The translations under genes and the position numbers were made by a program. From a virus: 25,505 nt of DNA. Below the pieces are notes generated by a model, which saw only the letters and a program-made list of their open reading frames with translations, was not told the origin of the DNA and made no database searches. The stretch spans positions 1 through 25,505 of IMG/VR virus record IMGVR_UViG_3300037193_001206. One strand, 5' to 3'. Shown here one piece after another: positions 9,131 through 24,402 of the stretch. Position 1 is the first letter of the stretch, and the number at the start of each line of letters is the position of its first letter.

Positions 9131-9996
9131 TGGGTGCCCAAACCGACTTCCTGCCGCTCGACCCGGAAGAGGAAAACCTGCCGCCGACCAGCATCGGCGA
9201 CCCCAACATGCCGGCGGGCGCCATGCCGCCGGGCGTCGCGCCGGCCGAGTCGACCGCGGACCCGCTCGACGCGGGCATCCCGTCGCTGGCCGAGTTCGAG
9301 GCGCTGAACCCCTACGGCACCGGCGCGGAGACGCCCGGGTGGACCAACGTGCCGGCGACGCGCGACATGCCCGCGTCGTGGTCGCGGGAGCGGATCATCC
9401 TCCTGCAACGCCAGATGCAAGCCGCTGGCGTGCTCGTGCCGCCCTACACCGTCGGCGTGTGGGACCCCGCGTCGTCGCAGGCGTATCACGCGTCGATCGC
9501 CCACGCGAACACCCTCGGCGTCGGTGTGGACGCCGCACTGTCGAAGCTGGCGTCGGCCACCGTGGAGTTCCCGCAGCCGGCCGCGACGTTGCAGCCGATC
9601 AAGCCGTCAGACCTCGCCCGCAACCTCAAGGCGCTGTGGACGCAGTTCCTCGGCGGACGCGAACCCACGACCGATGAGCTCCAAGAGTTCACCGCCGAAG
9701 TGATGGGGATGCGTCAGGCGGCCGAGGCGGGCAACCTCGACTTCCAAGGCGACGTGCAGCAGGCAGCGTTCGACGCGTCGCGCACCGGCACGCCCGAGTG
9801 GGCGAACATGCCGGCGCTCGAGGAAGGCGAGGAAGCCGGCCTCGTGACCGAAGAGGACATGGGCGCCCGCATCACCGAGCTCTTTCAGCAGCGGTACGGC
9901 TCTGAGATTGCCGGCGTCAAGGCGCGTGAAGAGACGGCCGAGTCGCAAGCTGCCGGCGCTGGGCTGTTCCAGACCGACTGGGGGCAGGGGTCCTGA
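9130..9996 (+). CDS. Putative internal virion protein (288 aa)
   Basis: A 288-residue soluble protein. The ATG at 9130 overlaps the upstream stop (GTGATG), and the GTG three bases earlier is a less likely start. The first 90 residues are Pro/Gly/Ala-rich and probably disordered. Residues about 80-150 (SRERIILLQRQMQAAG, VGVWDPASSQAYHASIAHAN) match a recurring 'LQRQM-AAG...GVWDPAS--AY---L-YAN-LG' block of actinophage and marine podovirus virion proteins. The C-terminal half is acidic and helical, with a coiled-coil-like end. Position between the giant protein and the cell-wall hydrolase suggests an inner-core component. No enzyme motif is visible. Confidence 0.75.
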   Translation: MGAQTDFLPLDPEEENLPPTSIGDPNMPAGAMPPGVAPAESTADPLDAGIPSLAEFEALNPYGTGAETPGWTNVPATRDMPASWSRERIILLQRQMQAAGVLVPPYTVGVWDPASSQAYHASIAHANTLGVGVDAALSKLASATVEFPQPAATLQPIKPSDLARNLKALWTQFLGGREPTTDELQEFTAEVMGMRQAAEAGNLDFQGDVQQAAFDASRTGTPEWANMPALEEGEEAGLVTEEDMGARITELFQQRYGSEIAGVKAREETAESQAAGAGLFQTDWGQGS

Positions 9997-11207
9997 TGGC
10001 AACCGCAACCGTCGACCATTCCCCGCGCGTCGCGCAGGCGGTTATCCGCATCGGCCGCGAGCTCGGCGCGACCGACGAGGAAATCGTCGGCGCGCTGGCC
10101 GGCGGCCTCGTGGAGTCCAATCTGCGCAATCTCAACTACGGCGACCGCGATTCGCTCGGCCCGTTCCAGCAGCGCGAGTCGATCTACGGCCGCGACGTCG
10201 CCACCGACCTCGAGGCGTCGATCCGCGCGTTCTTCTCCGGCGCGCGCGCGGTCACCGGCGAGTGGAAGAAAGGCCTGCTCGAGACGCGCGACATGGGCGG
10301 CACGATCGGCGAGCGCGTGCAGGCGGTCCAGATCAGCGCCTACCCCGACAAGTACGACGACAGGGTGGACGAGGCGACCACGCTGTTCGACCTGTATGGC
10401 AACGAGACGATCGCCGACCCTGATCCCGCCGAGCCGGTTGACGCCGGCGACGTGGACGACGATTTCGACGTGGACGGCGCGATGCTGCCGCTGTTCCAGT
10501 CGGTGTCGGACGCGGTGAAGCGCGGCGCGCTGGACCCCGACACCGCCGGCGGCGGCCTCAGTTCGATGCTCGCCGGCGACGAAGAGCCCGGCGGCCCGCA
10601 GCTTCCCGACCTCAACCAGCCGACAGGCGGGCAAGCCGAGGCGCTGCGCGGCCAGATCGCCGGCACCGCGGCGTTCCGCTACAGCGACCTGCCCGAGCTC
10701 ACGCTGACCAATGGCACCACGATCACGCCGGACGGGACGGCGACGCCGCTGCCCGGCACCGGCCAGCTTGCGGCCGGCGACAAGTCCGGCTCTGACCGTT
10801 CGTCGCTGGCGTGGGGCGGCTACGAAAACGGGCAGATTCCGATGGACGAGCTCATGCGGCTCGAGGGTCTGCACTACTCCGGCGAGGGGACGCACTACTT
10901 CGCGCAGGACGCCGGTGCAGCCATGCAGCGCATGGTCGCCGACGCGAAGAAAGACGGCGTTGACGTCACGCTGACCGACTCGTACCGCTCGCTGGCCGCG
11001 CAGGAGGACGTGTACGCCCGCAAGAAGGGCGTGGTCGCCGTCGCGAAGCCGGGCACGTCCATCCACGGGTGGGGCAAGGCCACCGATATCGCGACAGGCC
11101 GCGAGTGGGTCCAGCGCAACGGGTGGCGGTACGGCTGGGTCTGGCCCGACTGGGCACGCTCCGGCGACGACTACGAGCCGTGGCACTTCGAGTACCGGCC
11201 GGCATAG
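9996..11207 (+). CDS. Virion-associated peptidoglycan hydrolase: lysozyme-like plus M15 peptidase
   Basis: A 403-residue two-domain enzyme. Residues about 1-130 look like a lytic-transglycosylase/lysozyme-like domain: 'GGLVESNLRNLNYGDRDSLG' with E40 as likely catalytic acid, then 'PFQQR' and 'QAVQISAYPDKYDDR'. The same order is common in actinobacterial cell-wall proteins. A flexible Asp/Gly/Pro linker (about 135-285) joins it to an M15 D-alanyl-D-alanine carboxypeptidase-type domain: 'SYRS' (329-332), H357 and D364 in 'HGWGKATDI', and 'EPWH' giving E394 and H397. All expected zinc and catalytic residues are therefore present. It lies in the virion block rather than beside the amidase, so it probably opens the wall during DNA entry. 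It starts on a TGATG overlap. Confidence 0.88.
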   Translation: MATATVDHSPRVAQAVIRIGRELGATDEEIVGALAGGLVESNLRNLNYGDRDSLGPFQQRESIYGRDVATDLEASIRAFFSGARAVTGEWKKGLLETRDMGGTIGERVQAVQISAYPDKYDDRVDEATTLFDLYGNETIADPDPAEPVDAGDVDDDFDVDGAMLPLFQSVSDAVKRGALDPDTAGGGLSSMLAGDEEPGGPQLPDLNQPTGGQAEALRGQIAGTAAFRYSDLPELTLTNGTTITPDGTATPLPGTGQLAAGDKSGSDRSSLAWGGYENGQIPMDELMRLEGLHYSGEGTHYFAQDAGAAMQRMVADAKKDGVDVTLTDSYRSLAAQEDVYARKKGVVAVAKPGTSIHGWGKATDIATGREWVQRNGWRYGWVWPDWARSGDDYEPWHFEYRPA

Positions 11208-23772: not shown

Positions 23773-23992
23773 GGTGGCTGTTGAGGTAGGCGCGGCCCTT
23801 GTCGGTGAGCCAGCACCCCCACGGGCTCGTGCCGTACTCCACGTAGTCGCGGTCGGCTGCTCTCTCGGCTTTGCGATAGACCCGGTTGGGGTGGTGACCG
23901 TTGGCTGCGAGATAGCGGCACCCGAGGGTCCCGTACCGTTCGATGGCGGCGAGGAACACATGCAGCGGCAGACGATCGTGCGGAGCTGTCAC
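23759..23992 (-). CDS. Small winged-helix-like phage protein
   Basis: A 77-residue protein from GTG 23992, which overlaps the preceding stop (GTGA) and has TAGGAG six bases upstream. It contains 'HVFLAAIERYGTLGCRYLAANG', 'RVYRKAERAADRDYVEYGTSPWGCWLTDKGRAYL'. The second part reads like a winged-helix wing and last helix ('-G-WLT-KGR-YL'), suggesting DNA binding or a regulator; this is inference from pattern. It is coupled to the TGA-split conserved gene upstream and to the CxxC gene downstream. Confidence 0.7.
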   Translation of the reverse strand: MTAPHDRLPLHVFLAAIERYGTLGCRYLAANGHHPNRVYRKAERAADRDYVEYGTSPWGCWLTDKGRAYLNSHRERA

Positions 23993-24267
23993 GGCGTTCT
24001 CCTACGCTCCGGCCCGGACTCGCCGGCGTCGGCGACCACGCATCCCGGCGGAACCATCCGTACCTCGTCGGCGGTCAGGGCGACGCGAAGGTGCGCGATG
24101 CGCGGCTGTGCTCGCCATATCCACCACTCCCTGTCGCCGCCGACGCCGCGCAGCATGGCGACCGCGGCGCGTTCGAGCCGGCCGGGCGACCGTAACCGCT
24201 CCCGACCATCGGGTGTCCACAGGGACAGTGAGACGTGCCAGACCGGCGCGCCATCGTTGAGGCGCGC
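23989..24267 (-). pseudogene. C-terminal part of a conserved actinophage protein, no start codon after TGA
   Basis: Reading leftward directly after the TGA at 24268-24270, the same frame stays open for 92 codons and encodes a strongly conserved-looking block: 'PVWHVSLSLWTPDG', 'RLRSPGRLERAAVAMLRGVGG', 'DREWWIW', 'HLRVALTADE', 'VPPGCVVADAGESGPERRR'. I recognise this order (WHVS-S; GVGGDREWW; GHLRV; DAG-SGP-RRR) from small actinophage proteins of unknown function. No ATG, GTG or TTG lies before WHVS; the first in-frame ATG (24156) would remove the first third. It may be the second half of one gene with the 44-residue frame upstream, broken by a nonsense codon or read through. Downstream gene coupling (GTGA at its stop) looks intact. 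Confidence 0.7.
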
Positions 24268-24402
24268 TCACCGGTCGACGGCGAGCACGGACAGCAAAAG
24301 GTTGCCGTCGGACTGCGTGTCAACCTCGCGGTAGTCGGCCACGTCCTCGGTGTCCGGGTTCGTGAGCGGGTGAGTGATGGCGTACCGCTGTCTCTCGTTC
24401 AT
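24268..24402 (-). CDS. 44-residue frame, N-terminal part of the TGA-split gene
   Basis: Read from ATG 24402, which overlaps the stop of the ATPase gene (ATGA) and has GAGG upstream, the frame encodes 44 residues: 'MNERQRYAITHPLTNP', 'VADYREVDTQSDGNLLLSVLAVDR', then TGA. The product ends on a beta-strand-like segment (NLLLSVLAVD), and the next block continues in the same frame as if part of one fold. Either a true tiny protein or the first third of a 137-residue protein interrupted by TGA. Confidence 0.62.
   Translation of the reverse strand: MNERQRYAITHPLTNPDTEDVADYREVDTQSDGNLLLSVLAVDR

Follow-up and report, generated by a model that had tools for sequence, protein, structure and literature searches.

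We identified, on the minus strand of a virus contig, a gene that we propose to encode a small phage selenoprotein of a new family, translated with the SelB and tRNA-Sec of the host. Based on sequence, we give this reading a probability of about 0.9. The gene spans positions 23989-24402 of the window, by which we mean the whole stretch of DNA analysed (25,505 nucleotides, IMG/VR record IMGVR_UViG_3300037193_001206). The case is built on a stop codon conserved across the family, a single reading frame, one fold predicted for the whole chain, and a hairpin that covaries and has the core of an actinobacterial SECIS. From these data we infer actual selenocysteine (Sec) insertion, the identity of the hosts and the function of the protein.

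A single reading frame with a conserved internal stop codon

The frame that opens at ATG 24402-24400 runs for 44 codons to TGA 24270-24268, the proposed Sec codon, and continues at once for 92 more codons to the final stop, TGA 23991-23989, as described in the initial annotation. Read through, the window sequence 24402-23989 (-) is MNERQ...LAVDR*ARLNDGAPVWHVS..., where * denotes TGA 24270-24268. The proposed selenoprotein CDS has 137 residues with Sec at residue 45, which separates an N part of 44 aa (24271-24402) from a C part of 92 aa (23992-24267). Both junctions with the neighbouring genes are four-base overlaps, ATGA with the stop of the upstream gene (24399-24402) and GTGA with the downstream gene (23992-23989), as had also been noted. 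The C part, which begins with xRLNxGxPVWH, has no conserved start codon, and in the window none of its first 20 codons is ATG, GTG or TTG, which bears out the earlier remark that this block has no usable start.

Relatives were sought in IMG/VR and in GTDB contigs either with the C part alone or with a DNA pattern in which the stop codon was left unspecified; therefore, the searches carried no bias toward finding a stop. Together with the window, 34 distinct loci were obtained, on 33 virus contigs (the window among them) and one MAG contig, the former being uncultivated IMG/VR contigs and the whole set coming from many independent metagenomes. All 34 loci have a stop at the identical alignment column, with 31 TGA, 3 TAG, no TAA and no sense codon. 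The protein is conserved on both flanks up to this stop (ILAVDR*xRLNxGxPVWH over the 34 loci), the conservation of the N part extending to LAVDR. Aligning homologues, as the initial annotation had suggested, shows that one protein spans both parts. In-frame starts after the stop are scattered: ATG follows immediately in 7/34 loci, which is above the expectation for a free position, and in 7 loci none is found within the first 20 codons. The opposite picture considered at the outset, in which the homologues would always be separate genes with a defined start for the second, is not what the alignment displays.

No credible named relative of the protein was found in 50,697 phage records, plasmids, Pfam, PHROGs, NCBIfam or PADLOC, and the initial description of the C block as typical of actinophage proteins could not be sustained in these collections. 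Weak matches in other actinobacterial genomes (L076-L078) and in Gammaproteobacteria (L040 and L041) were judged to be due to chance. Stop-agnostic scans of IMG/VR and GTDB contigs did not return a homologue with Cys at the Sec position. Cys homologues are a usual, though not strictly defining, companion of a selenoprotein.

The gene upstream in the window encodes an AAA+ ATPase related to IstB and is itself preceded by an N6/N4 DNA methylase gene. Among the genes on the plus strand are one for an Amidase_2 (endolysin-like) protein and one for a VanY-domain protein; at 9996-11204 (+), the VanY-type D-Ala-D-Ala carboxypeptidase domain is C-terminal, and the product is probably a cell-wall-cleaving component of the tail. 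A gene-neighbour comparison found no consistent partner across family members. Two distant members, L027 and L012 (L058), have DUF5131 genes upstream of the proposed selenoprotein gene. Since the neighbours other than DUF5131 vary, the selenoprotein gene seems to be mobile as a single cassette.

One predicted domain across the stop codon

Modelled with AlphaFold from the 34-row alignment, with the stop treated as a residue, the joined 137 residues are predicted to form one domain (mean pLDDT 94.7, pTM 0.89). In this model, the stop position falls in the loop that joins strands 35-43 and 54-62, and the N part alone would form a helix and two strands. Foldseek searches against PDB and BFVD gave no match at E<=0.001, and a sequence search of PDB gave no match.

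Sec almost always acts as a redox centre or a nucleophile, and a small Sec enzyme is therefore our best guess for the role of the protein. We tentatively propose, at slightly under even odds, an enzyme that uses Sec as a redox centre or nucleophile in the loop that follows strand 35-43. No conserved Cys partner was found in the family (34 loci).

A candidate SECIS hairpin after the stop codon

The nucleotides around the stop are constrained beyond the protein that they encode. The codon that precedes it (24271-24273; CGG in the window) is CGT in 22 loci, AGG in 5, CGG in 3, CGA in 3 and AAC in 1. CGC, the most frequent Arg codon elsewhere, does not occur at this place in any locus; the synonymous bias at this position reaches z=23. 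Further synonymous excess is found at codons +3 (CTC), +5 (GAT) and +7 (third base G, irrespective of the residue). Since z=6 is exceeded by two further codons elsewhere in the gene, the bias is concentrated near the stop without being strictly confined to it. At codons +3 and +5 (24253-24270 (-) in the window), the family uses CTC in 23 of 27 CTN Leu codons and GAT in 15 of 19 Asp codons, against the usual GC-rich choice. This constraint, which lies outside the SECIS core, perhaps reflects a lower stem, or else a small hairpin (CGUUGAG..CUCAACG) that encloses the Sec codon. This small hairpin was rejected, since some members do not fit it, though most do, and compensation is slight; it is kept as an extra constraint.

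The candidate bacterial-type SECIS hairpin lies at 24230-24255 (-), GAUGGCGCGCC-GGUCU-GGCACGUCUC, and begins about 15 nt downstream of the stop. It was identified by its folding, stability, covariation and a core like that of the genes for selenocysteine-type formate dehydrogenase (Sec-FDH; the cysteine versions are called Cys-FDH). Its apical loop GGUCU (24240-24244) is 23 nt after the Sec codon, with the first and fourth loop bases paired, and in the family the hairpin takes the form G-C-C-[N26 G U N29 U]-G-G-C plus an outer stem. Compared with synonymous recodings, the segment +18..+42 has the more stable fold (Z=-6.9). It is the best of 35 windows, and among those that lie beyond it some are less stable than the null.

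N26 and N29 are the third bases of Pro and Val codons. They form standard pairs in 31 of the 34 loci (GC 15, CG 11, AU 4, UG 1), 16 of them changed on both sides, and they give the strongest mutual information of the region. Their covariation score was reached by none of 500 shuffles, and slid controls failed. On the protein tree, several co-changes of these two bases are needed, all of them in one direction where they can be paired; those on supported branches agree in 3/3 cases, a number too small for significance. Part of the invariance of P-V-W-H may stem from the RNA rather than the protein. Rfam returned no match.

Comparison with genuine selenoprotein genes

In the published model of the bacterial SECIS, the loop N1-G-[G/U]..N2, with N1 and N2 paired, is placed 16-37 nt from UGA (PMC13188914). 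The criteria derived from it (loop of 3-9 nt, G in the first two positions, stem of at least 4 bp, 16-37 nt from the codon, MFE <=-7.5; PMC13188914) are satisfied by 33 of the 34 family loci and also by 104 of 136 synonymous recodings, because PVW and the GC content supply part of the hairpin. Such lax criteria are weak alone, and the weight of the Sec reading is therefore placed on the covariation, the third-base pattern, the comparison with FDH, the TAG clade, and the rule on the base preceding the codon that the phage and FDH genes share.

Sec-type FDH genes are common in Actinobacteria: an FDH match was found in 122 of 395 sampled genomes of the class, many with one in-frame TGA. Among the genes fetched, the core CC-NGUNU-GG is present downstream of the Sec codon in all 30 actinobacterial Sec-FDH genes and in none of the 8 Cys-FDH genes. 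These cores read CC-[GGUCU, AGUCU or AGUUU]-GG, with the GGUCU loop in 24 of the 30. In E. coli, the loops taken from the genome are GGUCU for fdhF, identical to that of the window, and AGUCU for fdnG. Like the phage gene, actinobacterial FDH and E. coli fdhF and fdnG have an in-frame stop followed by a hairpin with an N-G-U-N-U loop and N1:N2 pairing; the actinobacterial Sec-FDH genes further share the CC/GG flanks of the loop and the absence of C before the Sec codon. With CC-NGUNU-GG common to both, one RNA core occurs in two unrelated proteins and in different frames (P-V-W in the phage, P-G/S-L-G in FDH).

The genes also differ. The phage protein is small and unrelated to FDH, its hairpin core is in another frame, its loop is 23 instead of 18 nt after the codon and can also be CGUGU, and no Cys homologues were found for it.

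In the actinobacterial FDH loci (L085-L122), the codon before Sec is ATT in 16, ATA in 12 and GTT in 2, and never ATC, yet of the 411 Ile codons elsewhere in the same FDH stretches 397 are ATC. C is thus avoided as the base before the Sec codon both in the phage Arg codons and in actinobacterial Sec-FDH. This shared rule is an unexpected and independent match between the phage family and Sec-FDH.

Members with TAG at the proposed selenocysteine position

The three TAG members (L012, L023 and L074) group together in a single clade with an SH-aLRT of 94. Sec was reported to be encoded by UAG in Geodermatophilaceae (PMC5330540). In the actinobacterial family of genome G017 (115 genomes), which we infer to be Geodermatophilaceae, 102 genomes have an FDH match, and with one exception they all carry TAG at its Sec position; from these sequences, the UAG-Sec code appears to hold throughout the family and not just in a few species. 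G017, the one member of the family that was checked, carries a tRNA-Sec-family gene above the cut-off with the anticodon CTA.

A phage protein of L012 has its best match in this UAG-Sec family (57% identity over 347 residues, versus 53% in the class-wide sample), and the genome with this best match carries TAG in its own FDH. A match between the TAG members and hosts whose tRNA-Sec would read UAG is, on these data, suggestive only. As in the Sec-UAG genes of Geodermatophilaceae (PMC5330540), UAG is followed in this clade by a SECIS-type hairpin; those genes encode host enzymes (FDH, UGSC, AhpC), whereas here it is a phage gene with UGA-using relatives.

Alternative explanations

A lone in-frame stop usually means a nonsense mutation, a pseudogene or a sequencing error in the phage at hand, and a recent mutation and an error were both among the initial proposals. 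The stop is present in 34/34 loci from many independent metagenomes, and conservation on this scale makes a sequencing error untenable and disposes of a recent mutation as well; to this whole class of explanation we attach practically no weight. The same conservation, together with the absent start, removes the non-standard start that had also been put forward. A related reading keeps two genes, with termination, reinitiation right after the stop and two chains assembling into one fold. ATG right after the stop in 7/34 loci would fit it, as would the TTG, GTG or ATG that overlaps the stop in 30/34. The overlapping XTGA start was nonetheless rejected as it lies in another frame and as T is favoured over G ahead of TGA, a preference that normal start usage does not show. 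Moreover, in 27/34 loci the codon after the stop is no start (GCG, GCA, AGC, CAG and others), R-x-N-x-G-x-PVWH is invariant from the second residue after the stop, and the stop lies within one predicted domain. Two genes are, in our view, very improbable.

The ribosome could also cross the stop without selenium. A hop or frameshift from the Arg codon before the stop to an Arg codon after it would draw on the Arg that precedes the stop, the invariant Arg second after it and the strong preference for CGT; the take-off codons (AGG, CGA, AAC) are unlike the landing codons of the same genes (CGC, CGG, AGA and others) and conservation follows frame 0 before and after the stop, and the hop, its codons being unmatched, was rejected as extremely improbable. 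More serious is ordinary programmed readthrough, with a near-cognate tRNA reading the stop under stimulation by context and hairpin. It would equally produce a conserved stop, a single fold, a local codon bias and a downstream hairpin, and the occurrence of both TGA and TAG is in its favour. The coat/A1 gene of the RNA phage Q-beta is expressed by programmed readthrough. There, as here, a phage gene is extended beyond a stop, but in Q-beta an extra domain is added to a complete coat protein, whereas here the stop is inside one domain and is accompanied by a SECIS-type hairpin. The loop pattern is that of genuine Sec genes, with N1:N2 pairing, and is absent from their Cys versions; in addition, the TAG members belong to a single clade, and there is a host family that encodes Sec with UAG. 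These points lead us to regard readthrough of this kind as unlikely. The initial annotation had also listed programmed readthrough or recoding of TGA: its notion of one protein crossing a stop holds (34/34 loci, one fold), but it had not named selenocysteine with a SECIS hairpin.

Proposed translation and host dependence

According to the selenoprotein reading, the host ribosome would start translation at ATG 24402 and the SECIS hairpin, about 15 nt past UGA 24270-24268, would recruit SelB carrying Sec-tRNA. Selenocysteine would be inserted as residue 45 and translation would run on to 23989, while ribosomes that do not recode would terminate and leave a 44-residue fragment. One phage clade would use UAG as its Sec codon, fitting hosts whose tRNA-Sec reads UAG.

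No suppressor tRNA or tRNA-Sec above the cut-off was found in the 33 phage records, many of which are fragments. As the phages have no detectable tRNA-Sec, the SelA/SelB/SelC/SelD system of the host is presumably required. Transfer RNA-Sec genes have been predicted on huge phages (PMC10747093). Both cases link phages to selenocysteine, but the huge phages contribute tRNA genes only, without a selenoprotein (PMC10747093), and the phages described here have the gene without a detected tRNA-Sec.

The phages look like viruses of soil actinobacteria. The only copy of the gene in a cellular assembly is on a contig of a Hamadaea MAG (L039, JABFYB010000274.1). Searches of this MAG bin for SelA and tRNA-Sec gave no matches above the cut-off; the contig is probably phage DNA placed in a Hamadaea bin, or else the bin is incomplete.

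Significance

In the open PMC papers, we found no phage selenoprotein. If our reading is true, no selenoprotein family would have been described from bacteriophages before this one, within the scope of that literature. Such a family would have been hidden because annotation stops at UGA, and phage gene catalogues would split genes of this kind in two. The family would tie phage biology to the selenium metabolism and the genetic code of the host, and would offer a natural experiment in which a gene tracks the UGA-to-UAG change of the Sec codon. It is conceivable, with a probability that we put somewhat below one half, that actinobacterial phages carry a widespread and strictly Sec-dependent protein, with neither a Cys form nor a Sec machinery of their own; the selenium code of the host, mostly UGA and UAG in one family, would then help to determine which hosts can be used, and the Sec codon would switch when the phage switches host.
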